A DNA stretch of 64,000 nt from Ichthyenterobacterium magnum (lineage in GTDB: Bacteria > Bacteroidota > Bacteroidia > Flavobacteriales > Flavobacteriaceae): contig NZ_RAQJ01000003.1 in assembly GCF_003610635.1 (NCBI RefSeq), forward strand, positions 186,001 through 250,000, in the 5' to 3' direction. Shown here one piece after another: positions 1,671-19,001 of this stretch. The notes below the pieces were generated by a model. It made no database searches. It was given only the letters and a program-made list of their open reading frames with translations, and was not told the origin of the DNA. Position 1 is the first letter of the stretch; each line of letters begins with the position of its first letter. The position numbers were made by a program, and so were the translations under genes.

Positions 1671-1716
1671 AAATAATGAGGTGTTTTTGTATTTACATAT
1701 AGTGAGTGATTATAGG

Positions 1717-2448: not shown

Positions 2449-4471
2449 TTTTTAAAAGTCCATTTTTAATCAATTCTATAACATCCTCATCAGAGAATTG
2501 GTTTTTACTTTCAAGAAACTCTTCGATTTCTTTATCTGATTTTTTTAAACTTTTTAATAAACTTTTAAATTGAATACCAAACTTATTTTTTTGTTTAATG
2601 TCAAGTGTCATAGAAACCTCATCTTTATAAGCCATAAAAGAATCATATAATTTATGATAAACGTTACCTATGGCTCCAGCAAAAGGTATCATTGTTGGTG
2701 TTTCTGTTCCACCTTTTAAAATCTGATCACTTGAAATACCTGGATAAGGGTCAATAAAATAAATTGTTCTAATACCTAATTGATAGGCTTTTTTAGCACA
2801 TAACTCACAAGGGCTTGCTGTTGTAAAAAGTATACCATTCTTAATACCTTGTCCTCCAAGTTTAGTAATTTGTAACATTGCATTTTCTTCAGCGTGTAAA
2901 GAACGTGTATGCACCTGATTTGCTTCACCTTCATAATGATTATGAACAGTCTTAAAGCAGAATGAACAATTTTTACCATTTAAATCATCTTTATTCTTGC
3001 TGTAGCTATCTTTAAAATAATCTGTCAAAGCAGTTGGGAAATTCTCTGGATACTCCCCTTTGTATTTGAATGAGGCATTTTGTGAGTGATTCCCCTTCTC
3101 AAACGGACTGTAATGATTTGATTCTTCTAATTCTTGTTTAGATTTTGGATTAATTATATCATTAATGTTCCTTAAATTACATGGTGTATGTCCTTTTGCA
3201 ACATCATTCCATCCTACCGACCTAATATAAAAATCTTCATCACTAATAGCTGCGCCAACATTTCTTGAAATACACCCTGAATTTAATTTTGCCGTATGAG
3301 CTATTTGCATACACCTTTCTGGTGAACTCGGGGTTAATAAACCCGGTTGAGCAATTAAAGCCATTAACTTTAATAATTGCTCTTCTCTTGTAATGAAATT
3401 ACGTTCCTTGAATTTTTCATTTAAATGCAAATCAAAAAACGTCTTTATATCCTCTTTTTTTAAGTTAAGTATATGATAATCGCTTTTCTGAATACAATTT
3501 TCAACATCAGGGGAAGAAAATAAACCTTTTGAAAAATCACCTGTTTTATATTCAACTTCATCAAGCTCCAACAGCTTATTTGCTACCTTTTCCCTCTCTA
3601 TCTCGTCATCTATAATATGTTCAAGTCTTTTTTGTATTCTTCTTTTTGAATTTCCTATTACATCTTTAGTAGCGAGCATGTAAAATGCTGAATATCTTTC
3701 TTTAAAAAACATTATCTCTAATGAGTTTCTTAAAGAGTCTATTACTATTCTTGTTGGCATACCATTATTATTAGCCTTTCGTGCCTTAATTAGCCTATTT
3801 ATAACCTCCGCAATTGTATAAACATGCTTAATTCCTTCCCCTTTCTCTTTAAGAGGATGGCCTGTTTGCCTAATATTACATGCTAAATAATGTAAGAAAA
3901 GTGTACGTCTGAAAAATCCATATTTTTCTAAAGCCATAAATAATTTATGACAAAAATGCTTAAAGTCTGATTTAAAGAAAATCTCATTTAGTTTAGACAA
4001 ATCATCTTTAGATTTAATATCTTTTACCTCACCTAAACTTTTTATGTCATCTATTAATTCCTTGTATTCCAAATGAAGATTGACAATATCTTTAAATACA
4101 TTTGATACAATATCCGAATTATCTTCACCTAATTTTTCTACAAAATATTTCTCTAAAATCTTTCTTAAAAACTTTAGGTTACCTCCCTCTTTGTTAAATA
4201 GATAAAAAACAATTACGTTTTTATACATTATTTTTTCAAAAGGAATCCAATTTCCTTTGAACTCCATAAATTCATTTAAAATCTTATACTTCCTATAAAA
4301 AAGATCTCTTGGGTCGAAATCGGAAAGAGGTCTTAACCCATCTTGCTTTTTGAATTTAGTGTAGCTATAAGTTAAGTGATTTGCTACCTTGGTACAACCT
4401 GACCCCGTACGGCCTGTTAAACCTATTACTACAAAATCTCGCCTTAATGAATATAAATTGTCTAATTTCAT
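2429..4471 (-). CDS. P-loop/deoxycytidylate deaminase fusion, AvcD-type anti-phage deaminase
   Basis: A 680-aa two-domain protein. The N-terminus has a kinase-like Walker A, GRTGSGCT (residues 20-27), after a hydrophobic strand. The C-terminus has a zinc-dependent cytidine/dCMP deaminase core: His526-Ala-Glu528 and Pro-Cys555-Glu-Leu-Cys558, with further Cys and His residues just upstream. This order is that of AvcD and related antiviral dCTP/dCMP deaminases, which deplete deoxycytidine nucleotides during phage infection. Those families are often held inactive by a neighbouring RNA (AvcI); here only 17 bp separate it from the upstream gene, leaving no room for such an RNA immediately 5'. The long middle segment (about 40-370) is unassigned. 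Its place behind an XRE regulator and next to HEPN and Argonaute genes supports a defence role. The deaminase assignment is strong; the antiviral role is inferred. Confidence 0.85.
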   Translation of the reverse strand: MKLDNLYSLRRDFVVIGLTGRTGSGCTKVANHLTYSYTKFKKQDGLRPLSDFDPRDLFYRKYKILNEFMEFKGNWIPFEKIMYKNVIVFYLFNKEGGNLKFLRKILEKYFVEKLGEDNSDIVSNVFKDIVNLHLEYKELIDDIKSLGEVKDIKSKDDLSKLNEIFFKSDFKHFCHKLFMALEKYGFFRRTLFLHYLACNIRQTGHPLKEKGEGIKHVYTIAEVINRLIKARKANNNGMPTRIVIDSLRNSLEIMFFKERYSAFYMLATKDVIGNSKRRIQKRLEHIIDDEIEREKVANKLLELDEVEYKTGDFSKGLFSSPDVENCIQKSDYHILNLKKEDIKTFFDLHLNEKFKERNFITREEQLLKLMALIAQPGLLTPSSPERCMQIAHTAKLNSGCISRNVGAAISDEDFYIRSVGWNDVAKGHTPCNLRNINDIINPKSKQELEESNHYSPFEKGNHSQNASFKYKGEYPENFPTALTDYFKDSYSKNKDDLNGKNCSFCFKTVHNHYEGEANQVHTRSLHAEENAMLQITKLGGQGIKNGILFTTASPCELCAKKAYQLGIRTIYFIDPYPGISSDQILKGGTETPTMIPFAGAIGNVYHKLYDSFMAYKDEVSMTLDIKQKNKFGIQFKSLLKSLKKSDKEIEEFLESKNQFSDEDVIELIKNGLLKSEQKKE

Positions 4472-4488
4472 TTACATATTTTAAGAAG

Positions 4489-4812
4489 TTAGTTCTCTAA
4501 TTTTTTTAATTCTTCAACAGTATAGTCTTTTGTATTTTGTGGACGAATAGAATAGCCTGCATAACCAGGGTAACCAGGATAACCAGGGTAACCAGGATAA
4601 CCAGGGTAACCAGGATAACCTCTATAAGGAAAATTGAGTATTTTGTAGAAACGGTCATTATCAAAAATACTCCCCAAATAATTACCTTTTTTATCAACTG
4701 CGTGTTCGTCATCCCAAGGGAACCAACCAATCCAATTAGCATTACTATTAAAAAGATAACTATCTATTTTAAAAGCAATCCAGTTACCGCTTGAGTTAAA
4801 CAAATATTTCAT
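4489..4812 (-). CDS. Small beta-repeat protein with Gly-Tyr-Pro tandem tract
   Basis: A 107-aa protein. Residues 1 to about 55 contain three related units of the form aromatic/Val-x-x-x-G/A-N-W/Y-I/L, the look of a small beta-flower or beta-propeller-like repeat fold. These are followed by PYRGYP and six further GYP/GYA triplets, then a polar tail with VEELKKLEN. It overlaps the upstream XRE gene by 4 bp (ATGA), so the two are translationally coupled, and lies 17 bp before the deaminase gene. Function is unknown. Coupling to a regulator and a potentially toxic enzyme suggests a sensor, adaptor or antitoxin role; that is inference. The fold resemblance is from pattern only. Confidence 0.7.
   Translation of the reverse strand: MKYLFNSSGNWIAFKIDSYLFNSNANWIGWFPWDDEHAVDKKGNYLGSIFDNDRFYKILNFPYRGYPGYPGYPGYPGYPGYPGYAGYSIRPQNTKDYTVEELKKLEN
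4561..4620 (-). repeat. In-frame 9-bp tandem repeat encoding Gly-Tyr-Pro
   Basis: Six full copies and one partial copy of a 9-bp unit lie inside the small beta-repeat gene. The units alternate between ATAACCAGG and GTAACCAGG on the plus strand, giving an 18-bp higher-order period. Because 9 is a multiple of 3, copy-number change by slippage would lengthen or shorten the GYP tract without a frameshift. Confidence 0.9.
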
Positions 4813-5111
4813 AAACTCTCATTTTTTTCAATCTTACTAATTTTTTCTTCAGCTATTTTGAGGATTTCCGTACTGTCTTTTTCGTTTTTTATCATTTGTA
4901 CAATCTGTTCGGACATCCAAAGCTTAATTAATTTGCTTTCATCTACTTTTAATTCTTTTGCAAATGCTATTACCTGCTCTCGTCTTGCCAAACGGTTTCC
5001 TCGTTCAATCTTGCTTAAATAAGCCACATCCATATTGATATTAGCAGCCATTTCCCTTAATAGCAAATTGCGCTTTTCGCGTAATGAGCGTATGTATTCG
5101 CCAAACTCCAT
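4809..5111 (-). CDS. XRE-family helix-turn-helix regulator
   Basis: A 100-aa protein with an N-terminal HTH_3 domain at about residues 4-60 (IRSLREKRNLLLREMAANI, then VAYLSKIERGNR), and a short helical C-terminal tail rich in Lys and Glu. It is the first gene of the minus-strand defence-like operon. It overlaps the next gene by ATGA. A perfect inverted repeat TTAGAC-N12-GTCTAA starts 12 bp upstream of its start codon and is a good candidate autoregulatory operator. It is likely the controller of the whole operon, comparable to C-proteins and antitoxin-type XRE repressors of defence loci; this role is inferred from position. Confidence 0.9.
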   Translation of the reverse strand: MEFGEYIRSLREKRNLLLREMAANINMDVAYLSKIERGNRLARREQVIAFAKELKVDESKLIKLWMSEQIVQMIKNEKDSTEILKIAEEKISKIEKNESL

Positions 5112-5122
5112 AATAGCATTAA

Positions 5123-5146
5123 TTAGACTTGTCAGATTTTGTCTAA
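5123..5146. promoter_or_regulatory. Candidate XRE operator: inverted repeat TTAGAC-N12-GTCTAA
   Basis: A perfect 6-bp inverted repeat with half-site centres 18 bp apart lies 12 bp upstream of the XRE start codon. The left arm overlaps a smaller palindrome, GACTTGTC. Position and symmetry fit a dimeric XRE repressor acting on its own promoter. Confidence 0.5.
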
Positions 5147-5466: not shown

Positions 5467-5937
5467 TTATAAGCTTGCTCGAAGCATCCAAGCCATTTTT
5501 TCGTGCTCTTCCAATAATGACCCCAACATACCAGAAGTACCTTCATCATTGTAAGAATTATTTATGTTATTTATGTTTTCACGAATAGAGTAAACAATAC
5601 TTTCATGGTCAGACAGTAATGCTTTAATATAATCGTTACTATTGTTCTTGCCTTCGAATTTTTCTGTAAGATGGGTTAAATCCAAAAATTCGGCTAAAGT
5701 ACCTGGTGTATAATGACCTATACTTCTAATACGTTCTGCAACGGTATCAATAAAACCATCTATTTGTCCAAACTGTTCTTCAAAAAACAAATGCATCGGT
5801 TTAAAGTCTGCTCCTTCTATATTCCAGTGTGCCTTTTTAGTCTTTGTGATAAGTATATACTCATCTGCTAATAGTTTAGATAATATTTCTGCAACTGCAT
5901 TAGCATTTTCACTTGTTAATCCAATATGTGTTTTCAT
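5467..5937 (-). CDS. dps: Dps, DNA-binding ferritin-like protein
   Basis: A 156-aa four-helix ferritin-like protein of normal Dps length. The inter-subunit ferroxidase ligands are all present with the exact spacing of Listeria innocua Dps: His37, His49, Asp64 and Glu68 (gaps 12, 15, 4), in the contexts KKAHWNIEG and FGQIDGFIDTVAERIR. It oxidises Fe(II) with hydrogen peroxide and stores the iron in a 12-mer shell, protecting DNA. It begins the stress cargo block and may be a second copy beside a chromosomal dps. The start is the only sensible ATG. Confidence 0.95.
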   Translation of the reverse strand: MKTHIGLTSENANAVAEILSKLLADEYILITKTKKAHWNIEGADFKPMHLFFEEQFGQIDGFIDTVAERIRSIGHYTPGTLAEFLDLTHLTEKFEGKNNSNDYIKALLSDHESIVYSIRENINNINNSYNDEGTSGMLGSLLEEHEKMAWMLRASL

Positions 5938-6179
5938 AATTAATGATGTTTATAAGGTGTTTCTATTAAGTGTAATGATAATCTGTCTAATTTAAGGATT
6001 AAATTTTACTTGAAATATTTGTTCAAGAAACATTTGTTAGATACTAAAAGTAACTCTAAATGATACGAAACAGGATAATTTAACTTTATAATTAGCAATA
6101 ATTTGCTTATATTTAGGATCTACCGTCATCACCAAAAGGTTGGTAAAAAAGAAATCAATTAACTAAAACACAAAAAAGT

Positions 6180-7379
6180 ATGTCAAGTAACAGAGGAGTT
6201 GTCTACAAAGGGGCTTGGAATTTAGAAGTAAATGATATTGCCTATCCCAAATTTCAAGATCCAAGAGGAAAAGATATTCATCATGCCGTAATCATTAAAG
6301 TGGTTTCTACCAACATTTGTGGTAGTGACCAACACATTTTTAGAGGACGTTTTACTGTTCCTGTTGGACATGTATTGGGTCATGAAATTACGGGTGAAGT
6401 TGTAGAGATTGGTAAAGATGTTGAATTTCTAAAAGTAGGAGATATAGTCTCCGTACCTTTCAATGTTTCCTGCGGACGTTGTAGAAATTGTAAGAAAGGA
6501 AATACTGATGTATGTGAGACAGTTAATCCAGAAGCTCCTGTAGGTGCTTATGGTTTTGATTTGGGCGGATGGCTTGGTGGACAATCGGAATATTGCTTAA
6601 TACCTTATGCTGATTTTCAATTACTGAAATTTCCAGACAGGGAGCAGGCATTGGATAAAATGCTGGACTTAACATTAGTGTCTGATATTCTTCCAACAGG
6701 ATACCACGGTGCTTTTGCCGCAGGTGTTACTACGGGGTCGACTGTTTATATTGCTGGTGCAGGACCTGTAGGTCGATGTGCTGCCGAATCTGCTAAACTT
6801 TTGGGAGCATCATGCGTCATTGTTGGTGATATGAACAAAGACCGTTTAGAACTGGTGAAAAAAGCAGGAATGGAAACCGTAGACTTAACTTTGGATGCAA
6901 GCGTAGCTGAACAAATTGAGCAAATTCTTGGAGTTCCTGAAGTAGATGCAGGAGTAGATGCTGTTGGATATGAAGCACACGGACATGGGGATGAGGATTA
7001 TAAGAAAGAAAATCCGAATGCCGTAATCAATGACCTCTTTGACGTTGTACGTGCAAGTGGTGGTATAGGCATTCCAGGGATTTATACTCCTGTTGACCCG
7101 GGCGGAAGAGATGAAAACGCTAAACAAGGAAAACTGACTGTTGATTGGGGTAAAGGCTGGTTAAAATCATTACGTATCCAGACAGGTATGGCACCGATAG
7201 GGAAATACAATTATCAGATAATGCAAGCCATTCTTTGGGATAGAATCTCTATGAAAACTATTATGAACCCAGAGGTTATTACTTTAGATGAAGCACCTCA
7301 AGCTTATCAAGATTTTTCTGATGGCTCGAATAAGAAGTTTGTTATCGATCCACACGGTATGCTAAAGGGACGTTATTAA
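6180..7379 (+). CDS. fdhA: Glutathione-independent formaldehyde dehydrogenase / dismutase-type zinc dehydrogenase
   Basis: A 399-aa medium-chain zinc dehydrogenase, matching the length and sequence style of Pseudomonas putida formaldehyde dehydrogenase. The catalytic zinc site is Cys47 (NICGSDQH) and His68-Glu69 (GHVLGHE). The structural zinc loop is CGRCRNCKKGNTDVC near residues 98-112, and the NAD-binding glycine motif is AGAGPVG. It oxidises formaldehyde to formate with tightly bound NAD. It is the only plus-strand gene of the cargo block, with its own terminator at 7403-7432. Its place between Dps and an oxidoreductase suggests aldehyde or electrophile detoxification. Dismutase versus dehydrogenase activity cannot be told from sequence alone. 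Confidence 0.92.
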   Translation: MSSNRGVVYKGAWNLEVNDIAYPKFQDPRGKDIHHAVIIKVVSTNICGSDQHIFRGRFTVPVGHVLGHEITGEVVEIGKDVEFLKVGDIVSVPFNVSCGRCRNCKKGNTDVCETVNPEAPVGAYGFDLGGWLGGQSEYCLIPYADFQLLKFPDREQALDKMLDLTLVSDILPTGYHGAFAAGVTTGSTVYIAGAGPVGRCAAESAKLLGASCVIVGDMNKDRLELVKKAGMETVDLTLDASVAEQIEQILGVPEVDAGVDAVGYEAHGHGDEDYKKENPNAVINDLFDVVRASGGIGIPGIYTPVDPGGRDENAKQGKLTVDWGKGWLKSLRIQTGMAPIGKYNYQIMQAILWDRISMKTIMNPEVITLDEAPQAYQDFSDGSNKKFVIDPHGMLKGRY

Positions 7380-7402
7380 TTTCAAAGAAAATAGATAAAA
7401 TT

Positions 7403-7436
7403 AAAGGGGATGATTTAAAAATTATCCCCTTTTTTA
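7403..7436. terminator. Rho-independent terminator after fdhA
   Basis: A nine-base stem AAAGGGGAT/ATCCCCTTT (7403-7411 with 7424-7432) is followed by a T run, 24 bp after the fdhA stop. The A-rich left flank may let it act for the convergent oxidoreductase gene as well. Confidence 0.9.
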
Positions 7437-7486
7437 TACCGATTTAGTAATAAAAAATTGTTTGTTATTGTTCAAGGCTTTACTTG

Positions 7487-8485
7487 TTATGCCTTTACAT
7501 TTATAACAACTTTTCCCTTTGTTCGTCCTTTTTTAACATAAAGCAATGCTTGCAAAGCATCATTAAAGGTAAAGACCTTATCTAAATTGGTCTTCACTAT
7601 TCCTGATTCTACAAGTTCAGCAATTTCATTGAGTTGTTTTGCATTAGCTCTCATAAAAATTAAACTGTAGTAGGCTGACTTTAATCGAATATGTTTAGTG
7701 ATTTTTCTTCTTCGCCAAGCTAAAATTAATTTAACGAAAAAATTCAACTTCATCCGGCTGGCAGTTTCTTTGTCAATAGGACCAACAAGCGATATTACTT
7801 TCCCTCCAGTTTTAATAACCTTAAAAGCATCTTCGGTAAATTTGTTGCCAAGTGTATCTAATACCAAATCAACATTACTTACAATATCTAAATAGTTTTG
7901 ACTTTTATAATCAATAACAACATCAGCCCCAAGTTTCTTCACCCATTCAACATTTTCTGTACTGGTAGTAGTATACACATAGGCTCCCTTGTATTTTGCG
8001 TATTGAATAGCAAATGAACCTACACCACCAGAACCAGCATGAACTAAAACCTTATCTCCCTCTTTTAATTTTCCGCGTTTTAAAGCCTGAATTGCTGTTA
8101 ATCCTACAAGTGGTAAACTGGCAGCTTCCTCAAAATTTACATTCTTGGGCTTTAGGCTAATAATATCTTTGTGTACAACTACGAACTCTGTAAAAGTTCC
8201 TTGTTTATTAACTTTTGAAAAAACTTCATCTCCAATATTGAAATCAGTTACATTTTTATCCTTATCCACTACAATACCACTGACATCATATCCTAAAGTA
8301 GCTGGCAGTTTGAATTTACGTACTGCTTTAAGTTTTCCTTCAATTACCTTAATATCCAAAGGATTAACACTAACAGAACGGGTTTCAATGAGCACTTCAT
8401 CTTTGTTTAAGATTGGTTTTTGTATTTCAGAAATTATTACTTTTTCAGAAATATCACCGTAGCCTGTAAATTGTATTGCTTTCAT
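7487..8485 (-). CDS. NADPH:quinone-oxidoreductase-like, zinc-free medium-chain dehydrogenase
   Basis: A GroES-like N-terminal domain (IETRSVSVNPLDIKV, GYDVSGIV) is followed by a Rossmann domain with VHAGSGGVGSFAIQYAKYKGA. The catalytic-zinc cysteine and the structural zinc loop are absent, which marks the QOR/enone-reductase branch that reduces quinones or alpha,beta-unsaturated carbonyls with NADPH. The frame extends upstream to 8530, but homologues start at MKAIQF, so ATG 8485 (333 aa) is chosen. It converges on fdhA and belongs to the stress cargo. The exact substrate is unknown. Confidence 0.88.
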   Translation of the reverse strand: MKAIQFTGYGDISEKVIISEIQKPILNKDEVLIETRSVSVNPLDIKVIEGKLKAVRKFKLPATLGYDVSGIVVDKDKNVTDFNIGDEVFSKVNKQGTFTEFVVVHKDIISLKPKNVNFEEAASLPLVGLTAIQALKRGKLKEGDKVLVHAGSGGVGSFAIQYAKYKGAYVYTTTSTENVEWVKKLGADVVIDYKSQNYLDIVSNVDLVLDTLGNKFTEDAFKVIKTGGKVISLVGPIDKETASRMKLNFFVKLILAWRRRKITKHIRLKSAYYSLIFMRANAKQLNEIAELVESGIVKTNLDKVFTFNDALQALLYVKKGRTKGKVVINVKA

Positions 8486-8563
8486 TTTTTGATGCTTTAC
8501 TAAAAGTTCATTTAGTTTTACTTGAAACAATAGAAAAACTAACTGTATTAAATATCTATTCTA

Positions 8564-10540
8564 TCACATATAAATATACTGCCTGTATAGATTATCTAAT
8601 TCTTGACGGATTTTCATTATAGTTTGTTCATCCTTATCATTAGAAGCTACCAAAAGTTGTTGCTCTTTTTCTGTAATCCTTTCACAAAGTTCATCAAGAT
8701 TCTCACAAAAATCTTTTGGGTGGGAGAATGTTTCTTCCACGCTCTCATCTTCAACATTCAGTTTTCTTGCCGAAGTTACTGGTGTAACATTATGTTCTGC
8801 ATTATAGGCTATTTGTCGTTTCCTGCGATTTTCGGTTTCATCAATAGCCTCTTTCATAGCAGGTGTAATATTATCTGCATACATAATAGCTTTTCCGTTG
8901 ACGTTACGGGCCACACGACCAATCATTTGTATTAATGCATTAACCGAACGCAAAAACCCTGCATGGTCAGCATCTAAAATAGCCATTAAGGAAGCTTCTG
9001 GAATGTCCAATCCTTCACGCAATAGGCTTATTCCTATTAAAATATCAAATTCGCCTGCTCTTAATCCGTTGATGATTTCTGTACGCTCAATAGTTTTAAA
9101 ATCCGAATGTAAATATCGTGCCCTAAAACCTTTATCTACTATAAATTCGTGAAGACTTTCTGCTGCAACCTTTGTGAGTGTAGTAATCAAAACTCGATTG
9201 CCTGCTTCTACACAGGTTTTTATTTCGCCCAACAAATCTTCAATAGCATTATCTTTAGGTCGTACTTCTACAACAGGGTCAAGTAAGCCTGTAGGCCTAA
9301 CAACTTGTTCAACAACCCTTCCTTTTGAGACTTTTAACTCATATGCTCCTGGAGTCGCAGAAACAAAAATTGTTTGTGGTTTTAATTTCTCAAACTCCTC
9401 GAAACTCAATGGATGGTTATTCTTTGACGAAGGCAATCTAAAACCGTAATCAATAAGCGTGTCCTTACGTGCTTGGTCGCCTTTATACATTGCCGATATT
9501 TGCGGAATCATTACGTGAGATTCATCGATGAACAAAAGACCGTCTTTAGGCAAGTAGTCGAGAAGTGTTGTTGGCGGTAGTTTTGGGTCACGCCCACTAA
9601 AGTAACTTGCATAATTTTCCATTCCGGAACAATACCCAACAGTTTTGAGCATATTAACATCATCTGTAATGCGTTCGTAGAGACGGTCTGCTTCTATTAA
9701 TCGATTCTCTTGATTAAGTTGGGCAATACGCTCTTCCATCTCTAATAAAATCTGGTCTGCCGCTTCGGATGCCTGTACATGGGACGGTGCAAATAACGTT
9801 TTTGGTGACACAGCGTATTGTGTGATGTCTTCTATATGGTTTCCTGATGCTGAATCGATATATCTTAACGAACTAACCTTTCCATTATCTATTACCAACT
9901 GTACTGCCTTATATTCAGAATCGGCAGGGAAAATATCGATTGTATTTCCATCAATTTTATAAACCCCTCTTTTTAAACTATGCTGTGTACGGTCATATTG
10001 TACTGATGAAAGTTGTTTTTCGAACTCATCAATAAGAATCGGCATCCCGAGTTCAAGATGCACTTGAAGCGCCTTATAATCTTTAGGGTCACCCAATCCA
10101 TAAATAGATGAAACGGATGCTACTACAATTGTATCTTTTCGCTCAATAAGTGATTTTGTAGTTGAAAGACGTAATCGTTCTAATTGCTCATTAATTGACG
10201 AATCTTTTTCTATGAAACGGTCGCTACCAGGTAGGTACATTTCAGGTTGAAAATAATCATAATACGAAACAAAAAACTCAACCGCATTTTCAGGAAAAAG
10301 CTGTTTCATTTCTTGATATAACTGTGCTGTTAGTGTTTTGTTGGGTGCAAGAATCAACGTTGGACGTTTTAACCGATGGATGATGTTTGCCATTGTGAAG
10401 GTTTTACCTGAACCTGTAATACCTTTAAGTGTTTGATGGGTTGCTCCCGACTCTATTCCAGAAACAATTTGTGCGATTGCTTCGGGTTGGTCACCTGCTG
10501 GGGTGTTATTGGAATGTAAAATAAAAACGCCTGTTGACAT
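8564..10540 (-). CDS. uvrB: Excinuclease ABC subunit UvrB
   Basis: A 658-aa UvrB with the expected order: Q-motif/Walker A GITGSGKT (about 40-47), the YYDYFQPE beta-hairpin region (about 92-99), SVSSIYGLGDP, a DESH Walker B (LLFIDESHVM), and SAT, with helicase motifs ISLLREGLDIPE and ALIQMIGRVARNVNGK. The C-terminal UvrC-interaction (UVR) helices are near 615-650. It scans DNA for damage loaded by UvrA. As it lies in an integrative element, it is probably an extra copy; uvrA in this window (32592) is in the core chromosome. Several usually invariant positions differ (for example MYLPGSDRF for AYVPSSDTF), consistent with a diverged element-borne paralogue. Confidence 0.95.
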   Translation of the reverse strand: MSTGVFILHSNNTPAGDQPEAIAQIVSGIESGATHQTLKGITGSGKTFTMANIIHRLKRPTLILAPNKTLTAQLYQEMKQLFPENAVEFFVSYYDYFQPEMYLPGSDRFIEKDSSINEQLERLRLSTTKSLIERKDTIVVASVSSIYGLGDPKDYKALQVHLELGMPILIDEFEKQLSSVQYDRTQHSLKRGVYKIDGNTIDIFPADSEYKAVQLVIDNGKVSSLRYIDSASGNHIEDITQYAVSPKTLFAPSHVQASEAADQILLEMEERIAQLNQENRLIEADRLYERITDDVNMLKTVGYCSGMENYASYFSGRDPKLPPTTLLDYLPKDGLLFIDESHVMIPQISAMYKGDQARKDTLIDYGFRLPSSKNNHPLSFEEFEKLKPQTIFVSATPGAYELKVSKGRVVEQVVRPTGLLDPVVEVRPKDNAIEDLLGEIKTCVEAGNRVLITTLTKVAAESLHEFIVDKGFRARYLHSDFKTIERTEIINGLRAGEFDILIGISLLREGLDIPEASLMAILDADHAGFLRSVNALIQMIGRVARNVNGKAIMYADNITPAMKEAIDETENRRKRQIAYNAEHNVTPVTSARKLNVEDESVEETFSHPKDFCENLDELCERITEKEQQLLVASNDKDEQTIMKIRQELDNLYRQYIYM

Positions 10541-10717
10541 AAAAATGGTTTCTGTTATTTCTGTTTAAAAATGATGTACAGACATAAAGATAGTCAAATT
10601 TCTGGCATACACATTATAGTAACTTATGTGCTTTAACCACAATTTCACCAGTAACTGGATATGGATGTTTCTATTGTGAATATTTCGGGAAAGGCTAAAA
10701 AAAAGTTGTCAGTCAGA

Positions 10718-11218
10718 CTAATACTCTATTTCTAAAACATCATAAACTCTTTGTTTCTGTGGCAATTCTAAAATAGCCCTGTCACCCACTTTTTTATGAA
10801 TTAGCATTTTGGCCAATGGTGAAATGAAGGAAATTTTCCCTTTAGAAATATCAGCCTCATCCACACCTACAATTTGGTATTTTTCGATTTGTTTTGTACT
10901 CTCTTTCTTGAGTGTTACAGATGCTCCAAAACGAATTTCATGCGGAGGATGTGTTTTTAAATCTACTACTTTTGCTGAAGAAATTCTGCTGTTTAGCAAA
11001 TTTAATTTTGCATCAATATGATTTAAAGCTATACGACGTTCGTTTTCATCTTTAATACTTAATTCATTCTTTTCATCAAGTAGCACTTGCTTTTCAGTCA
11101 ATAGTTCATCCATTCCCATTGGAGTTACATAGTTTGTTACACCTTCTGGTAAGTGGGCTCTTGGTGGTACTATAGGGATTTCCTCTTGGTCATCTTCTTT
11201 TACAAATCCTCTGCTCAT
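10718..11218 (-). CDS. GreA/GreB-family transcript-cleavage-like factor
   Basis: A 166-aa protein with an N-terminal extension of about 35 residues. A predicted coiled coil follows (about 40-85, LLTEKQVLLDEKNEL and onward), then a C-terminal FKBP-like Gre domain (YQIVGVDEADISKGKISFISPLAKMLI, then GDRAILELP). Gre factors enter the RNA polymerase secondary channel and stimulate transcript cleavage through acidic residues at the coiled-coil tip; the tip here (SIKDENERR) is acidic. Element-borne Gre paralogues are common in Bacteroidota. It ends a stress operon, 3 bp downstream of the UPF0114 gene. Confidence 0.85.
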   Translation of the reverse strand: MSRGFVKEDDQEEIPIVPPRAHLPEGVTNYVTPMGMDELLTEKQVLLDEKNELSIKDENERRIALNHIDAKLNLLNSRISSAKVVDLKTHPPHEIRFGASVTLKKESTKQIEKYQIVGVDEADISKGKISFISPLAKMLIHKKVGDRAILELPQKQRVYDVLEIEY

Positions 11219-11221
11219 AAT

Positions 11222-11746
11222 TTATTCAGGTTTATCTTTTTTGTTTGAGTTTTCTTCTTTGTCAAGATGCAAAAATTTGAGACCAAGAGCTAACAACAAC
11301 ACTGAAATAGGAAGAATGGCAATTTCCCATTTAAGGTTGTTTATGTTAACAAAGACCGTTTCAAGAAACTTCACGAACAAAATTATAACAATAACCTCTG
11401 CAAGTACATTTTTGAGATGTCCAATATTAGGAGTTCGAACCCATTTTAGTACGCCATTTCCATCTTCATATTTTTTATTGGAAATGAACAATGTATATAC
11501 ACCATGAGCGAAAATAAATAGAATTAAAGCGATAAGAAAGGTGTCCAACGATTTGATAAGGTAGGTTGTAGCTACATCAGCACTATGTAAATGCGCTTTA
11601 TCCTTCGGAACATAATCAAACAATACCACCCGTAACGCATTAATGGTTTTTAAAGCTCCTACCACAAACAAAAGTAATGACCCTATTAAAGAGCATATAA
11701 CTGCAATCCAACTCACATAACGGAAGATGTAAAATAATTTTTTCAT
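11222..11746 (-). CDS. UPF0114 (YqhA-like) membrane protein
   Basis: A 174-aa protein with about four hydrophobic segments (roughly 10-35, 62-88, 110-132 and 140-160). The second carries the family-like stretch LIKSLDTFLIALILFIFAHG. YqhA/UPF0114 proteins are inner-membrane proteins of unknown function. It lies between the bestrophin-like channel gene and the gre gene (3 bp gap to gre), so it is probably co-expressed with them. The tail is rich in charged residues and cytoplasmic by the positive-inside rule. Confidence 0.8.
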   Translation of the reverse strand: MKKLFYIFRYVSWIAVICSLIGSLLLFVVGALKTINALRVVLFDYVPKDKAHLHSADVATTYLIKSLDTFLIALILFIFAHGVYTLFISNKKYEDGNGVLKWVRTPNIGHLKNVLAEVIVIILFVKFLETVFVNINNLKWEIAILPISVLLLALGLKFLHLDKEENSNKKDKPE

Positions 11747-11859
11747 TTAATTCTTTAAATATTTTTATTTATTATACTTCAAATATAACATAAAATAGGC
11801 CTTTATTCTAACTCGAAATGACACCCAGCTTTGCCATTTTATCAATTTGAAAGCTTTTA

Positions 11860-12753
11860 CTACATTAAATAAAACTTTTTTGGTTGAATAGGTTCGGGAA
11901 TATCTTTTTCGTCCAATAATTGACGGATATTAATTTCAATTGTTCTGGACAAAGAAGTCATAGGTGTATCTGTCTCATGGTTGTCAAATGGGTCTTGAAG
12001 TTGATGTGCTAACTTTTGTAAAATGAAAAACAACATAGAAATAGAAAGTAGAATAATGATTTGTAAGAAAAGATTAAGTTGAAGCACAGGGGATAAACTT
12101 AAAAAAACAACAAACAAGTAGATAGATATATTTAAAGCTTGACCATATGTTGGTGGAAAAACGGTGTTTTTTATGCGTTCACATTTCCCCATAGAAGCTA
12201 CTAATCTCGTTAGTGTTACTTCAAGTTGTGTTCTTGCAAACTCTTCAATCGTTTTTTTCTCATATAGCTTTCTAACGGCTTCTGTTTGAAGTTGATTTAT
12301 AGCTAAAGGTATGTTGGATTGTTTTTTTATTTTTTCCAAATCCTCTTTATTTAACAGGTTTTCCCATCCGGAAAGAACATCTTGTTTTCTTAATGACTTG
12401 TCTAAAGCATAACACCAAGCAATTTGATAGTGGGCTATCTTGCGCAAAAGTTCATCATTCTCATTCAAATAAAGTTGAAGTTGTAATACCAAAGAACGAC
12501 TATCATTCACTATGGCTCCCCAAATGGTTCGGGCTTCCCACCAGCGATTGTACGATTGATTGATTTTATATGACAGCAAAATAGATATGGCTATACCTAA
12601 CGTGGTGGCAATACCTATCGGTATTTCAGGTGAAAAATTGGGGAAATATTTTGGTAACAAGCCAAAAATAAAGCCTAAAAGGACAACTATTATTAATGGA
12701 ATTTTTATTTCGTTAAGTAAAAATTTAAAAGGGATTTTGCGGTTTATTATCAT
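11860..12753 (-). CDS. Bestrophin-family (RFP-TM/YneE) anion channel-like protein
   Basis: A 297-aa membrane protein with a hydrophobic N-terminal pair (about 15-35 and 42-62), then the bestrophin signature SYKINQSYNRWWEARTIWG with the conserved aromatic and Arg residues, a cytosolic helical region and a second hydrophobic pair (about 205-245). A C-terminal D-x-x-D-x-H-type segment (LQDPFDNHETDTPM) is typical of the bacterial family. Bacterial homologues form pentameric channels. Its role in the element is unknown; with its neighbours it suggests membrane or ion stress handling. Confidence 0.88.
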   Translation of the reverse strand: MIINRKIPFKFLLNEIKIPLIIVVLLGFIFGLLPKYFPNFSPEIPIGIATTLGIAISILLSYKINQSYNRWWEARTIWGAIVNDSRSLVLQLQLYLNENDELLRKIAHYQIAWCYALDKSLRKQDVLSGWENLLNKEDLEKIKKQSNIPLAINQLQTEAVRKLYEKKTIEEFARTQLEVTLTRLVASMGKCERIKNTVFPPTYGQALNISIYLFVVFLSLSPVLQLNLFLQIIILLSISMLFFILQKLAHQLQDPFDNHETDTPMTSLSRTIEINIRQLLDEKDIPEPIQPKKFYLM

Positions 12754-12961: not shown

Positions 12962-14707
12962 TCAAACAATCTTTAAATAGACACCGTGTGCTTCTCTATG
13001 TATTAATCTTGCTTCTACAAACTTTGTAATATAACCCTCTGCTGTTTTGTGTGGGATGCTTTGTTTGATTGCCAGATCCAAATAATCTTGCCTACTGAAT
13101 TTCTTTGGTAGGGTTTCTAAAAACCTTTCCTTTCGATTTAAACGTTTTGCCGCTTTCTGTTCTATCGGTAAATCGTTAAACACTTTACTACTGTGTTTTA
13201 CCAAAATAGAAATAATAGTAAGCGCATTTTGAAAATCGACATCCTCACATTCTTTTACTTGGTTAACATCACCATCTTCCATAATGCGAAATACCGTAAA
13301 TAACATCATTAAACGAAATGCAATTAAGCCTAATCGCCTTATGGTTGCAATATACTCTTCGGGTTGTAAGTTGATGTATTTGGTTTGTAAGGATTCAAAA
13401 AACGTATTGAATATCTGTTGTTGAGGTGTTGTTAGCCTTACTTCAATCTCTGGGTTATTCTTTAGTGTTTTATATAAGCCCAAAAACTCATTACCCAATT
13501 GTGAATAGTAATCATCTAAACCAACATTGTTGTTACTTGAAAATACGTTTTTCCAAGTAGGTTTTATATTCATATAATAGAACATAAAACGACTGAACAA
13601 ACCATTTTCGGCATTTGGAATTAAGGTTGCTACTTGTTTAGGTGTACCTGACAATACTGTTGATAAACAAGGCTTTTCAATATCTACATACTCTCTATCT
13701 GTTCTACGATAATAGCTTATTGTTTCGTGATGGAAAGCTTTACGAAAACCATCGCTATAATTACCGTAATCGCTCTTAAAAGCTTGTGCTAATGTATCTC
13801 CTTCAGTTTCAAAAATCAATCCTTTACCTTCATTATCAGAAATTAATTGATATACTCCAGTAACACTATTGTTGGCAGGAATAAACAACATCCTTTCGGG
13901 TGGTTTACCTGGTTTCTCCAAGTTTTCATCTTTACCCTTGTTCATATTATACGTTGCCATTTCTGTATTAAATTGTTGTTTTAGTACTTTGGCTTGTTCA
14001 CGTTTTAACTTATGTACAGGGTCTACCAAATTCTTAATTTGGTTAAGTCTGCCTTTACCTGCAGATGCAGGTGCGGTAACAAACAGGTATAAATTGGCAA
14101 AGACTTTACGTTGGTCGTAGATACCAAAGAGTTTAGGAAAGCAGGCACTAAAAGCCGTTAAAGCTCCTAACAACAAAATGTCCTTTTCCTCTTGACTGCT
14201 CGAAGGGTTTACAACTTGTTGTAAAAACTGCGGTAAGGTATTAAATACCTCATCTGGTATTGTTGGCATTGCTTGCTCTGGTACATCAACAACAGTTGCA
14301 ACATTTGTTGCAACCTCGTTGTTGTTTTGTTGCTTCATTGGTTTTATACCTGCCTGATGCGCATAATGGTAAAACGTTGCAATGGTAATGCCGTGACCTT
14401 TAGCATTTAGGCATTTGTTAAACTGTTCGTCACATTCTTTTGAATCATAACCTACATAGTTTTTGCTTATTCTGTGGAAGTAGTCTCTTCCTGTTTCGCC
14501 ATATTCTTCAGCTAAAGCAAATCCTAAATCTCTCCAAGTGGCATAATTTCCTGTTATGTCTATACCTGATTGCTCAATTGCTGAAATGTAGGTTTCAATG
14601 TCGTTATCAGCAACAGCAACAACATTCGTTGTTGCTTTGTTGCTTGTTGGTTGCGGTTGCTCTTCTGGAACTTCCAACCATTCTTTTGGATTAAATATTT
14701 TGGTCAT
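12962..14707 (-). CDS. PriCT_2/DUF3987 primase-helicase-like protein
   Basis: A 581-aa protein. The N-terminal third carries a PriCT_2-like region (about 35-110, TWRDLGFALAEEYGETGRDYF and a GHGITIATFYHYA end). A DUF3987 domain follows, with the P-loop-like APASAGKGR (about 217-225) and LIFETEGDTLAQAF. Low-complexity Ala/Thr/Asn/Val linkers occur at about 20-32 and 130-145. It overlaps the upstream VirE_N gene by 4 bp, and such pairs are the usual replication module of Bacteroidota mobile elements. It probably acts in element replication after excision. It is the last gene of the int-proximal operon. Confidence 0.85.
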   Translation of the reverse strand: MTKIFNPKEWLEVPEEQPQPTSNKATTNVVAVADNDIETYISAIEQSGIDITGNYATWRDLGFALAEEYGETGRDYFHRISKNYVGYDSKECDEQFNKCLNAKGHGITIATFYHYAHQAGIKPMKQQNNNEVATNVATVVDVPEQAMPTIPDEVFNTLPQFLQQVVNPSSSQEEKDILLLGALTAFSACFPKLFGIYDQRKVFANLYLFVTAPASAGKGRLNQIKNLVDPVHKLKREQAKVLKQQFNTEMATYNMNKGKDENLEKPGKPPERMLFIPANNSVTGVYQLISDNEGKGLIFETEGDTLAQAFKSDYGNYSDGFRKAFHHETISYYRRTDREYVDIEKPCLSTVLSGTPKQVATLIPNAENGLFSRFMFYYMNIKPTWKNVFSSNNNVGLDDYYSQLGNEFLGLYKTLKNNPEIEVRLTTPQQQIFNTFFESLQTKYINLQPEEYIATIRRLGLIAFRLMMLFTVFRIMEDGDVNQVKECEDVDFQNALTIISILVKHSSKVFNDLPIEQKAAKRLNRKERFLETLPKKFSRQDYLDLAIKQSIPHKTAEGYITKFVEARLIHREAHGVYLKIV

Positions 14708-15612
14708 AATGCTTGGTGTCTTTTATGTAAAAAGGCTGTTGGGTCGTATGGTAAAAAACAAGCTCTGGAAACGTCTTTACCTGACTGGTCAACCTCAATG
14801 TTATAAGTATGCTTAATATAATTGGCTACTGCCGTGAAATACTCTGAATGTGTTACTTCTGAAACATCTATTCTGATAATCCATTTTAGGCCATCACCAG
14901 AAGGTGATGTAAATAGCATTTCGGTTTCAAAGTATTCATCATTCAATAATTGTGTTCTTAACTCTTGTAGATTTTCTAAATGGTCAAAATCAATAGTTAA
15001 TAGATTGGAATGCTGTAACAAATTGTTATCATTCCGCTTTTCAAACGTTCCTGAAAAAGTGACGTAATCAAAGCGATTAGCTTTGAATTTACGTGCTTCT
15101 TTTACATCGCTTATTGCTCTTAAATCTTCAGTAATTCTTTTGTATTTATCACTTGTGATTAATGCAAATACTTGATATAACCGCATAGTTTCCGCAGGAA
15201 ACACATTGCGAACTGGGGCTTTGAAAAAGCTACAGTAAGCATACCAAGTATCGTCTGGACCATTCAACCAATCTAATTCGCTCTTTTCCTTGACTTCTAA
15301 ATTGAGATGCAACTCTTGGTTAATCTTATGCAACAATTCTTCTTCATCGGTTATTCTAAAATGATATTGTGCAAAATCGAATACATCACCGTTAAAAGTT
15401 TTTAGTTCAGTATCTCGATGTGTTGCTATTACACCATCAATATGAATCCGTAAGGTTTCTTTACCACCATTAAATGGATTGCGAGTTATCCCACAGTCCC
15501 TTCCTTTTACAGAAAGGACTGTTTGATTAGGATAATACTGTCTCAACACATAGGCATAGATTTTTAAACCATAATGTGTTTTGTCTAAAATTGCTTCTCT
15601 ACTTATTTCCAT
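14704..15612 (-). CDS. VirE_N/BT4734-family primase-like protein
   Basis: About 302 aa from ATG 15612; the frame is open up to 15669, but that start overlaps the upstream gene by 71 bp, whereas 15612 gives a 14-bp overlap. It contains the VirE N-terminal region typical of BT4734/BF3469 proteins: LLTIDFDHLENL, then FTSPSGDGLKWIIRIDVSE and VDQSGKDVSRACFLPYDP. This is a primase-polymerase-like fold that accompanies DUF3987 proteins on Bacteroidota elements. It is translationally coupled on both sides, indicating one replication operon. Confidence 0.85.
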   Translation of the reverse strand: MEISREAILDKTHYGLKIYAYVLRQYYPNQTVLSVKGRDCGITRNPFNGGKETLRIHIDGVIATHRDTELKTFNGDVFDFAQYHFRITDEEELLHKINQELHLNLEVKEKSELDWLNGPDDTWYAYCSFFKAPVRNVFPAETMRLYQVFALITSDKYKRITEDLRAISDVKEARKFKANRFDYVTFSGTFEKRNDNNLLQHSNLLTIDFDHLENLQELRTQLLNDEYFETEMLFTSPSGDGLKWIIRIDVSEVTHSEYFTAVANYIKHTYNIEVDQSGKDVSRACFLPYDPTAFLHKRHQAL

Positions 15613-15895
15613 CTCGCTTGAAATTATGGTTGTAGTAGTTGTCTTGAAGCAACTGCTCAATGTCAGCAACTCTATAGTAAAATTTACCTTTTACTTTGCT
15701 GTAAGGCAAAGTGCCATTGGTTCTTAAAGTTTGTAGTGTTCGCTTACTTATATGTAAGGTCTGTAATACATCTTGATTGTCTATCCACGTATCTTTTAAT
15801 ACTTCTGCTCTCGATTGTCGTAACAATTCGATACGTGCTTTAATGTCCTTTATTTCTTGCGAGAGTGCCAAGATTAAATCGATTATTTCAGTCAT
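15599..15895 (-). CDS. Helix-turn-helix (excisionase-like, HTH_17) protein
   Basis: A 98-aa protein with an N-terminal helix and a MerR/Xis-type winged HTH at about 40-85 (QDVLQTLHISKRTLQTLRTNGTL, then YSKVKGKFYYRVADIEQLL). It overlaps the upstream HTH gene by 4 bp and the VirE_N gene by 14 bp. Paired small HTH proteins like these serve as excisionase or operon regulator in Bacteroidota mobile elements. Confidence 0.85.
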   Translation of the reverse strand: MTEIIDLILALSQEIKDIKARIELLRQSRAEVLKDTWIDNQDVLQTLHISKRTLQTLRTNGTLPYSKVKGKFYYRVADIEQLLQDNYYNHNFKRDGNK

Positions 15896-16191
15896 AACTT
15901 CACCGCTCCTTTCTTAATTAGGTAATCGGCAGCTTGCTGTTCGATTTCATCTTGTGAATCAACACGGTTACTTAATAACCATTCTTCTAATTCGACTCTG
16001 TTAAAATAAATTTTCTTTCCATTCGGTTTATAATGTGGAATGGTTCCTGTACTTGTAAGTTTGTATAAATGGGATTGTGATAATTCCAAAAACTTACACG
16101 CTTCGTTGAAGCTCAATACGTTTTTTACAATAATGTTTCTGTCTAAAACGTGCTGTTCAATAATTTTGAGACGTTCTAATATTTCGTCCAT
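15892..16191 (-). CDS. Helix-turn-helix (excisionase-like, HTH_17) protein
   Basis: A 99-aa protein like its downstream neighbour: an N-terminal helix, then FNEACKFLELSQSHLYKLTS and HYKPNGKKIYFNRVELEEWL, the HTH_17 pattern. It is the first gene of the replication operon (16191 leftward to 12962). The upstream region holds a GACAT/ATGTC inverted repeat around TGGCCA (16222-16239) that could be its operator. It is probably a recombination directionality factor or regulator. Confidence 0.85.
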   Translation of the reverse strand: MDEILERLKIIEQHVLDRNIIVKNVLSFNEACKFLELSQSHLYKLTSTGTIPHYKPNGKKIYFNRVELEEWLLSNRVDSQDEIEQQAADYLIKKGAVKL

Positions 16192-16320: not shown

Positions 16321-16353
16321 CAGTAAGGTTTCTTACTATTCTTACTGTTTTTT
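16321..16353 (+). terminator. Hairpin with T run (terminator-like)
   Basis: CAGTAAG (16321-16327) pairs with CTTACTG (16341-16347), followed by six T. The T run is on the plus strand, while the flanking genes are both on the minus strand. It would block plus-strand read-through, or is a structural site of the element. The end overlaps the stop codon of the 315-aa gene. Confidence 0.5.
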
Positions 16354-17299
16354 ATTGCAGTTGTTGGATAATTTTATCTATTTCTTCCTTTTCTTTTGGG
16401 TTATGAACTTTGTTTTTGTGAAGATTATTAGCCTTTAATAGCGTACCTGTTTTGGTAACAAATTTTCCAGAACGTTCTATTGCCGTAGGATTGAAATAAA
16501 TAAAAAATGGTTTAAGTTTTGTTACAAGGTAACTAAACTGTGTCGTCTCGCATTGAAGATAAATTTGCGATTCTGTATTTGTGAAATCTTTTGCTAATAA
16601 GAGTTCGTGCAACTGTTCTACAGTTGTACGGTTATCTAACAAATCTATTTTTAGATTTACCAGTTTGAGCACAGTTAGCAAAGTTGAAGTGTCATTACTT
16701 TTATATCCGAAAGAAGTCTTTGGTTTTGCTTTCGTTTTTGATGTTTTTTTGGTAGCAACTTTTTTAGTGGTGCTCTTTTCTATCACATTAACATCAAAAG
16801 TTTCATCATTAAAGTATTTTTCTGCAATTTCTGAAATAGAAAATGTTGTGTTTTCTGAAAACTGACCGTATTGCTCTTGTAGTTCAGCATACAATCTTAT
16901 AGCAGACACTTTTAAGTAGTTTATGATATAATTATCATCATTATTTAAATCTGCTGTTATTCCTCTCTTATTGATATAAGTTGCAATGTCATTTAAGTAC
17001 TTATCAAATTTATTAAGTAGAATAGTATAGCTATATTTATTTTCCGGTGTAGTTGCATTTACGGGAAATTCTTTTGAAAATGATGCTACTGTATTTTCTG
17101 TTTCAATAAAGATTAGCTTTTGGTAGTATTCTTTTTTCGCATTTAAAGGCTTTTTAAAGTTTACTTTAAAAACTGCATTATTGGCTTTTGGATTCAATTT
17201 AAAATCAGACAGTAGGTATTTAAAATCCTTTTTTTGTCTATTATCTCTATGTAAGCCATTGGTTATAGAAACCAAACTTGAAAATACACTTCCTTTCAT
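16352..17299 (-). CDS. Hypothetical protein coupled to the integrase (315 aa)
   Basis: I do not recognise a family. The protein is Lys-rich and largely helical with no membrane segment. A basic linker (KKVATKKTSKTKAKPKT) at about 176-192 separates an N-terminal domain (about 1-170) from a C-terminal one (about 200-300). The start codon shares a base with the integrase stop codon (TAATG), so the two are translationally coupled. This suggests an accessory role in recombination or its regulation, comparable to other integrase-linked element proteins; that is inference. Confidence 0.75.
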   Translation of the reverse strand: MKGSVFSSLVSITNGLHRDNRQKKDFKYLLSDFKLNPKANNAVFKVNFKKPLNAKKEYYQKLIFIETENTVASFSKEFPVNATTPENKYSYTILLNKFDKYLNDIATYINKRGITADLNNDDNYIINYLKVSAIRLYAELQEQYGQFSENTTFSISEIAEKYFNDETFDVNVIEKSTTKKVATKKTSKTKAKPKTSFGYKSNDTSTLLTVLKLVNLKIDLLDNRTTVEQLHELLLAKDFTNTESQIYLQCETTQFSYLVTKLKPFFIYFNPTAIERSGKFVTKTGTLLKANNLHKNKVHNPKEKEEIDKIIQQLQ

Positions 17300-18400: not shown

Positions 18401-18766
18401 TTAATTAAAGAGGTTTTCTATTTGCCATCTGGCCACAATACGCTTTCTACCAAAAGGAACTGCTTTTAAACGTCCTTGTTGAATCATTCTTTGAATGGTC
18501 CATCTACTCACACCAATAAGTTGTGAGGCTTCTGTAACGCTTAAAAAATCTTTGTTATTTACAGCATTAGGATTGTAAACTTCAACAACTTGTTTTTGCT
18601 GTTGCATATCTTCAGTAAGAGTAGCTTGGATTTTTTCTTGACGCTTGCGAGCCTTATATGCCCTTTTTGCACAAGTATCACCACAGTATTTAGTAACTGT
18701 TGTGCGTGCTGTAAACGCATTACCGCAATGCTTACAAGTTTTAGGAATGAATAAATTACTGCTCAT
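18401..18766 (-). CDS. Zinc-ribbon plus HTH excisionase-like protein
   Basis: About 121 aa from ATG 18766. The frame is open to 18862, but that stretch contains the 10-bp iterons and homologues begin near MSSNLF. A CxxC...CxxxC zinc-ribbon-like motif (CKHCGNAF, then YCGDTCAKRAYKARKRQ) is followed by a linker and an Xis-type HTH (FLSVTEASQLIGVSRWTIQRMIQQGRLKAV). It lies 7 bp before the integrase and is likely its regulator or directionality factor. Confidence 0.85.
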   Translation of the reverse strand: MSSNLFIPKTCKHCGNAFTARTTVTKYCGDTCAKRAYKARKRQEKIQATLTEDMQQQKQVVEVYNPNAVNNKDFLSVTEASQLIGVSRWTIQRMIQQGRLKAVPFGRKRIVARWQIENLFN

Positions 18767-18815
18767 AAATGGTGCTTTATGTAGCGTAATGGTGCAACGT
18801 GGTGCGTTATGGTGC
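18766..18815 (-). promoter_or_regulatory. Five 10-bp iterons (GCACCA) abutting the start of the zinc-ribbon/HTH gene
   Basis: On the minus strand the 50 bp before the start codon read as five 10-bp units: GCACCATAAC, GCACCACGTT, GCACCATTAC, GCTACATAAA (degenerate) and GCACCATTT up to ATG. The period is one helical turn, so bound proteins would line up on one DNA face. The arrangement fits an autoregulatory operator or a binding array for the directionality factor. Confidence 0.65.
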
Positions 18816-18850
18816 ATCATTTCGCCTTTATTTTCGTCAACAGATTTGGG

Positions 18851-18977
18851 CAACAAATCCATATTTAAGGCAACAGATATACAACAAATTTAATCAAAAA
18901 AGAGTAAATAAGCAACAAATAAAAGAAGATAAAACACTATAAAACCAACAATAACAAAGGATTAACAAATAAAAGAA
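18851..18977. repeat. CAACAAAT repeats in helical phase next to the attachment site (putative integrase arm sites)
   Basis: CAACAAAT occurs at 18851, 18882 and 18913, exactly 31 bp apart (three helical turns). A one-mismatch copy is at 18871 (CAACAGAT) and TAACAAAT is at 18963. The last two sites extend to a 14-bp direct repeat AACAAATAAAAGAA (18914-18927 and 18964-18977), 50 bp apart. The array fills the AT-rich gap between the excisionase-like gene and the mnmE stop, where arm-type integrase sites are expected. Confidence 0.6.
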
Positions 18978-18983
18978 AGTAAG

Positions 18984-19001
18984 TTACTTCCCGATACAAA
19001 A
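18984..19001 (-). other. Putative attachment site (last 18 bp of mnmE)
   Basis: The last 18 bases of mnmE read TTTTGTATCGGGAAGTAA and encode FCIGK-stop. The equivalent last 18 bp of trmE is the attB/direct repeat used by SGI1-family islands. Here the element's recombinase and repeat array lie directly downstream. No second copy was found by eye in this window. Confidence 0.55.

Follow-up and report, generated by a model that had tools for sequence, protein, structure and literature searches.

We propose that the DNA analysed here, a window of 64,000 nucleotides from Ichthyenterobacterium magnum (C3:186001-250000; the assembly has 16 contigs with 3,009,115 bases), contains one end of a 42.4-kb integrative genomic island, the tyrosine integrase of which carries out recombination between a circular attP and the 3′ end of the host gene mnmE and belongs to a Bacteroidota-wide clade of mnmE integrases. 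We consider this reading very probable. The element is of an ordinary kind with an unusual site: the target known from SGI1 is met here from another integrase class.

The att pair at the 3′ end of mnmE

The motif TTTTGTATCGGGAAGTAA has an exact match on the minus strand at window 18984-19001, and in the whole stretch it occurs only once, even when up to three mismatches are allowed. The match is the final 18 bp of mnmE, the reading frame of which is complete with the FCIGK-stop end intact, and as the initial annotation had described it lies beside the recombinase region, with an HTH gene between it and the integrase gene (Table 1). The second copy, whose presence to the left of the window the annotation had left to be checked, was found at C3:162628-162645, on the same strand, 42,356 bp left of the mnmE copy and with one mismatch. 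The assembly as a whole has four matches to the motif at up to three mismatches (eight in the reverse-read control), and only two at 0-1 mismatch, namely the mnmE end and C3:162628-162645. The block common to both copies is the 18-bp TTGTATCGGGAAGTAACT, outside which there are scattered matches only. The two att copies bound the 42.4-kb island; direct repeats at both island ends, one of them inside the target gene, and an intact tyrosine recombinase at one end are the features of a site-specific integrative element.

As the reading of an inserted element demands, a second copy exists and the genes downstream of mnmE are not identical among relatives: in 30 relatives' loci, no gene is conserved after mnmE except the integrase and HTH genes. 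The annotation had also suggested a check of related strains for empty sites; an empty site with the same flanks was not found in related genomes, and the assembly, searched for an attP or an empty attB junction, has neither. The left-flank aspartyl-protease gene has three matches in 149 family genomes, the own genome included, the search within the genus having covered the own genome alone; three left-flank proteins compared with the ORFs within 1.5 kb downstream of mnmE in 30 loci gave zero matches.

Table 1. Features of the window (coordinates as window positions).
Feature	Position	Strand	Evidence or remark
Prokaryotic Argonaute, 703 aa, N-terminal part	1..1670	-	continues to C3:185559 outside the window
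235-aa protein	1717..2424	-	weak HEPN-like match only, E 4.5e-4
dCMP-deaminase-type protein, defence-like cargo	2429..4471	-	PADLOC dCTPase model, E 1.5e-118
XRE-type regulator	4809..5111	-	16/18 compared loci
Cargo block: bestrophin, UPF0114, GreA/B, UvrB-like, two alcohol dehydrogenases, ferritin-like	5467..12753		Pfam
PriCT_2 + DUF3987 primase/replication protein	12962..14707	-	18/18 compared loci; end of the 6.0-kb core
BT4734-like protein	14704..15612	-	18/18 compared loci
HTH_17 protein	15599..15895	-	15/18 compared loci
HTH_17 protein	15892..16191	-	18/18 compared loci
DUF6617 protein	16352..17299	-	14/18 compared loci
Tyrosine integrase, 364 aa	17299..18393	-	Arm-DNA-bind_5, Phage_int_SAM_5, Phage_integrase
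HTH_17 protein, 153 aa, candidate excisionase (putative role)	18401..18862	-	18/18 compared loci
att copy beside mnmE, final 18 bp of the gene	18984..19001	-	partner copy outside the window
Putative 7-bp spacer TGTATCG	18992..18998	-	deduced from 14 att pairs and 23 viral attP candidates
mnmE, host gene, 462 aa	18984..20372	-	Pfam TrmE_N, MnmE_helical, MMR_HSR1

The conserved core and the cargo

The integrase gene starts about 590 bp from the mnmE stop because the 153-aa HTH_17 gene lies between them, and residues R225, H310, R313, H336 and Y345 of the integrase are invariant in 14 aligned sequences. Counted from mnmE, the first 6.0 kb contain in order the HTH_17 gene, the integrase gene, the DUF6617 gene, two further HTH_17 genes, the BT4734-like gene and the PriCT_2/DUF3987 primase gene. 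The gene-by-gene comparison covered 18 of the 80 named loci described in the next section, nine close and nine more distant. In the nine close loci, recorded as Seonamhaeicola, Mesoflavibacter, uncultured Olleya, Meridianimaribacter, Winogradskyella and others, the integrases are 92-99% identical and the 6.0-kb core has 80-94% DNA identity. The Argonaute (PADLOC pAgo match, E 8.1e-287) is matched in eight of the nine close loci, with two cut by the stretch end, and in none of the nine distant ones, while the cargo block at 5467..12753 has no match in the fetched stretches of the 18 compared loci; therefore the core and the Argonaute tend to travel together in the close group and the other cargo varies. 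A UvrB-like protein is encoded at window 8564-10540 beside the GreA/B and bestrophin genes, and it too is unmatched in the stretches of the 18 loci.

The ORF set of the island consists of 36 non-overlapping ORFs of at least 60 aa, 35 of which were covered by the Pfam scan, one 68-aa ORF being left out. The remaining island is mostly devoted to metal handling (two RND pumps, adaptors, two P-type ATPases, MerTP and a Fur-like protein), with DUF6943 and DUF6266 genes at the far end. The 35 ORFs of the 36 have no Pfam match to relaxase, coupling protein or T4SS families, which sets the island apart from an integrative and conjugative element, and the Pfam scans of the island gave no MobP relaxase of the NBU1 type, by which it also differs from a canonical Bacteroidota integrative mobilizable element. 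Packaging or capsid families are likewise absent from the scanned ORFs. The G+C content is 33.8% in the island, 31.5% in the 40 kb to the right and 28.5% in the 12.6 kb to the left.

The integrase family across Bacteroidota

The window integrase matches the alignment A1 and is located downstream of the mnmE 3′ end on the same strand, as is characteristic of the Bacteroidota mnmE-integrase clade. In the named Bacteroidota loci with related integrases, which are the best 80 of at least 569 relatives, mnmE is directly upstream on the same strand in 76, a fraction that is not unbiased because the 80 are the best matches to an alignment of mnmE-adjacent integrases. Together with the paired att copy, the recurrence of this location in 76 of the 80 supports the annotation's main claim, that the element is inserted at the mnmE 3′ end. 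The exceptions are L071, L099, L108 and L117, which have no mnmE upstream, with the motif being upstream in L099 and L108. The taxa recorded for the named loci range from Flavobacteriaceae to Sphingobacterium, Cyclobacteriaceae, Saprospiraceae, Chitinophagales and Bacteroidales.

A less biased sample than the 76 of 80 was obtained with mnmE as bait: 58 of 60 relatives were matched, the best 30 of the 58 were taken as loci, and an integrase of this family is present within 1.5 kb in 10 of the 30 (the own locus included, and one integrase split over two frames). A suggestion that occupied mnmE genes generally end in GGAAAGTAA was dropped after the endings in these 30 loci were compared by eye. 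In a sample of 395 genomes of the phylum, 86 have an integrase match at E 1e-30; in 30 loci from these 86 genomes, mnmE is directly upstream on the same strand in 18 and absent in 12. The degenerate motif is matched in 375 of the 395 genomes, and thus nearly all of the phylum offers a site. Of 40 single-motif genomes at class level, chosen in the order of the list, six have an integrase of this family within about 2.4 kb (one a fragment), a count that is probably low because single-motif genomes exclude islands with a matching second copy; 38 of these 40 ends agree with the C-terminus pattern usual for mnmE, that of L304 does so nearly, and one is cut by the contig end. Judged from these sequence comparisons, mnmE is the usual target of a Bacteroidota-wide integrase clade.

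A second copy of the motif is present downstream on the same strand in 10 of the 76 named loci (fetched stretches, 624,119 bases), with zero copies on the other strand and zero in the reverse-read control of the same bases. The elements in these ten loci are 4.7-9.6 kb in size. A protein of about 310 aa matched Phage_CRI (G2P-like Rep) in the four loci tested (L074, L079, L080 and L104), which hold mnmE elements of 4.7-8.3 kb. It is also noted that in two genomes (L129 and L130, from G421 and G417) the two ORFs right after mnmE resemble by eye the island's HYC_CC_PP protein and RND pump, and no A1-family integrase is present within 1.5 kb of mnmE there.

Related integrases in viral contigs

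The viral loci are the best 80 of 401 relatives, 59 of which are usable, with at least 300 bp upstream of the integrase gene. The core motif occurs within 400 bp upstream of the integrase gene in 42 of the 59, as against none for the pattern read backwards. The mnmE C-terminus was detected by tblastn in 19 of the 59, and in 28 the motif is present and no mnmE C-terminus was detected. The motifs of these 28 are candidate attP sites, it being noted that the set includes near-identical contigs and that a few may have an upstream sequence too short for mnmE. A PHROGs scan of ten proteins near the integrase genes on L164 and L224 gave another integrase, a RecE-like exonuclease and a repressor-like protein, the other seven being unnamed. 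The elements in the viral contigs are probably phages. Two short records named as Escherichia and Salmonella phages, OR845421.1 and OR850969.1, possibly mis-assigned, contain an integrase 40% identical to that of the window.

The crossover site

The crossover site was located with 14 att pairs, from ten named loci, the window's element and the genomes G057, G281 and G308. The two copies agree at positions 4-8, 10 and 11 in all 14 pairs and at position 9 in 13, and at the flanks they agree in 9 of 14 at position 3 and 6 of 14 at position 12. Mismatches occur on either side of positions 4-11, and strand exchange is therefore located in TGTATCGG. Position 12 differs in eight pairs, in all of which the mnmE side has A; an element that leaves its own right arm in mnmE would produce this pattern. 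We infer that the spacer of strand exchange comprises positions 4-10.

Six centres were tried for the complementarity of the arms, the best being position 7. With this centre, the mean number of matches of nine in the inverted arms is 6.0 for the deduced attP, 3.9 for the deduced attB and 2.54 for random windows, and it is 5.7 for the 23 viral attP candidates (the 28 less five near-duplicates). The window's own element scores 5 of 9 in both the deduced attP and the deduced attB. The deduced attP of G057, G281 and G308 score 3, 4 and 3 of 9, respectively, and therefore symmetric arms are not present in every member. Most pairs show the 7-bp spacer and its inverted arms clearly, the window's own pair weakly.

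Comparison with SGI1

SGI1 inserts at the last 18 bp of trmE/thdF, as stated in passages of PMC2297512 and PMC5704250, which upholds the annotation's statement that SGI1 uses this same 18-bp mnmE site; insertion there, by which SGI1-family islands are recognised, is also found for the window island. A passage of PMC2297512 further describes a putative 7-bp spacer with imperfect inverted repeats, so SGI1 and the window island are alike in the 18-bp site, in such a spacer and in being cargo islands. Their sizes are also alike, SGI1 being given as 42.4 kb in PMC3285670. The same site is used by island families other than SGI1 as well (a passage of PMC9035990). By contrast, SGI1 belongs to another phylum, islands at mnmE/trmE/thdF being reported in Gammaproteobacteria in passages of PMC5704250, PMC8409611 and PMC9035990, and the window integrase is of another domain class than three proteobacterial-type integrases found next to mnmE, which are stand-ins and not IntSGI1 itself.

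The stand-ins were found through the mnmE-end pattern in viral contigs, which gave 49 loci. Among them, 28 have an integrase of the Bacteroidota family and four (L251, L263, L288 and L291) have a Bacteroidota-like mnmE without an integrase of that family; nine were rejected as an unrelated reading frame ending in FCIGK by chance, and L293 as another chance match. Seven other loci (L256, L258, L269, L272, L278, L283 and L286) include three with an Arm-DNA-bind_3 integrase, while L278 has an integrase-like ORF with weak domain matches, L258 has a cut ORF, and L269 and L286 have no recognised integrase next to mnmE. In the three, L256, L272 and L283, mnmE shares 45-55% identity with its E. coli counterpart and 37-39% with that of the window, and an integrase of 409-410 aa with Arm-DNA-bind_3, Phage_int_M and Phage_integrase domains is encoded 165-174 bp after mnmE. 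The Bacteroidota integrases, four proteins of which were scanned, have Arm-DNA-bind_5, SAM_5 and Phage_integrase domains instead. In one comparison, the window integrase and that of L272 are 23% identical over 203 columns with E 0.012. The Bacteroidota profile detects the integrases of L256, L272 and L283 weakly, with E 1.1e-5, 6.5e-5 and 0.017, and therefore the proteobacterial-type integrases are distant members of the same superfamily. In three records examined among E. coli genomes, the break after mnmE is not SGI1.

From the different domain classes it follows that two integrase classes reached the same 18 bp. The suggestion in the annotation that the use of this target may be convergent is thus supported indirectly, the integrases of L256, L272 and L283 standing in for IntSGI1, and a convergence with SGI1 on the mnmE end is what these sequences point to.

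Model and alternative explanations

In the model, the integrase would recombine the circular attP with the mnmE 3′ end, with excision presumed likewise. The core site would be a 7-bp spacer, TGYATHG, between inverted arms with the consensus ACTTTC / GAAAGT, where the spacer would correspond to the Cys-Ile codons and the first base of the Gly codon, the exact cleavage points being deduced ones. Since the right arm is the coding sequence of Gly-Lys-stop, the element would supply its own copy and mnmE would stay intact. The HTH protein encoded next to mnmE may act as the excisionase, and transfer would presumably depend on a helper, no transfer genes being found in the scanned ORFs. One and the same integrase clade would serve islands with cargo, small elements that encode a G2P-like Rep and the elements of viral contigs.

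Three other explanations of the pair of repeats and of the island need to be weighed. That the two 18-bp copies are accidental and there is no element, for which the sole support is the shortness of the repeat, is practically negligible and in practice refuted, as the 3.0 Mb hold only two matches at 0-1 mismatch, both on the same strand and with an integrase at one end, and as the same arrangement recurs in 76 of 80 loci. It is doubtful that the island is an immobile relic that integrated once at mnmE and can no longer leave or move: an assembly without a circular junction and 35 of 36 ORFs without relaxase, coupling protein and T4SS families would be expected of a relic, but the integrase, HTH and primase genes are open, and a core 80-94% identical with integrases 92-99% identical in nine loci of several genera indicates recent movement of the family, which argues against it. 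We regard it as unlikely that the island depends on packaging by a helper phage, as a phage satellite does, and not on conjugation; the integrase, small HTH proteins and primase at one end, the lack of any relaxase match, and the presence of the same integrase clade and site in viral contigs would be consistent with a satellite, yet 42 kb is large for one and the scanned ORFs contain no packaging or capsid family.

As to the origin of the shared target, it could also be supposed that the Bacteroidota and SGI1-type integrases inherited the mnmE specificity from one ancestor. This would account for the use of the same 18 bp with both crossovers in a 7-bp spacer including positions 5 and 9 (a passage of PMC2297512), and the Bacteroidota profile weakly detects the proteobacterial-type integrases, as it may detect tyrosine recombinases in general. 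Such common descent is nevertheless very improbable in view of the Arm-DNA-bind_3 and Phage_int_M domains of L256, L272 and L283 versus the Arm-DNA-bind_5 and SAM_5 domains of the Bacteroidota integrases, and of the low identity between the window integrase and that of L272, again a stand-in for IntSGI1.

Other known systems and implications

In NBU1 the integrase gene is adjoined by HTH and primase genes, and the target is a tRNA gene. The window island resembles NBU1/Tn4555-type elements in its tyrosine integrase of Bacteroidota type, next to which HTH and primase genes are located, and it differs in that NBU1, NBU2 and Tn4555 encode a MobP relaxase (a passage of PMC5704250), whereas no relaxase was detected in the island. 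The dusA-specific integrase family, according to a passage of PMC4482086, is similar in having one conserved tRNA-modification gene as its target and in occurring in prophages and islands, and is different in using another gene and its 5′ end rather than the 3′ end as in mnmE. The 10K island of Riemerella anatipestifer and ICECleSHZ29 of Chryseobacterium, in the published passages that describe them, likewise come from Bacteroidota and have a tyrosine integrase and direct repeats, but their targets are tRNA genes. A third paper on elements of Bacteroidota also gives tRNA targets. Another published Bacteroidota element has a 16-bp repeat, with the gene unnamed in the passage concerned. Among the titles and starts of abstracts listed in a literature search, with most subscription journals outside it, no mnmE-specific integrase of Bacteroidota was found; large island databases (TIGER/Islander, PMC12424338) may contain such sites without comment.

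One 18-bp stretch within a protein-coding gene appears to be the point of convergence of two integrase classes, and the spacer falls on the conserved Cys-Ile-Gly codons of MnmE. Tentatively, mnmE could be a phylum-wide docking port in Bacteroidota, contested through one integrase clade by cargo islands, small Rep elements and temperate phages; an island with an Argonaute and further defence genes may not only hold the site but also act against the phages that use it. The site could help in predicting host range and in detecting islands and phages from their end sequences, and possibly serve as a landing site for genetic tools.

Changed targets and related segments

On a FastTree tree of 177 integrases with midpoint root and mixed support inside, the distinction between mnmE or motif on the one hand and neither on the other takes 12 changes. 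Some of the integrases with neither are from single viral contigs and may have variants of the motif, and others look like real target shifts. In L020-L023, integrases of the clade are located at the 5′ end of a gene, the product of which is endonuclease/exonuclease-like by eye. The genome of the window has another integrase of the clade, on C8 and 60% identical; it sits at an intergenic repeat, ACAACGGTTTTGTGTAAGC, which is common to L071 from Formosa maritima; the integrases of C8 and L071 represent a changed target. At about 1595-7142 of the C8 locus (L236, genome G000), the ORFs after the integrase match the core in size and order, the likeness being one of size only.

Seven same-contig motif pairs were taken among the matches listed for the 395-genome sample. 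Four of them, from G002, G122, G383 and G095, have no A1-family integrase and were excluded from the 14 att pairs. Here, segments of 3-14 kb lie between two copies of the mnmE end (L243, L244, L245 and L246, respectively), and the segment of G002 contains type I restriction-modification genes and a gene for an AAA protein.
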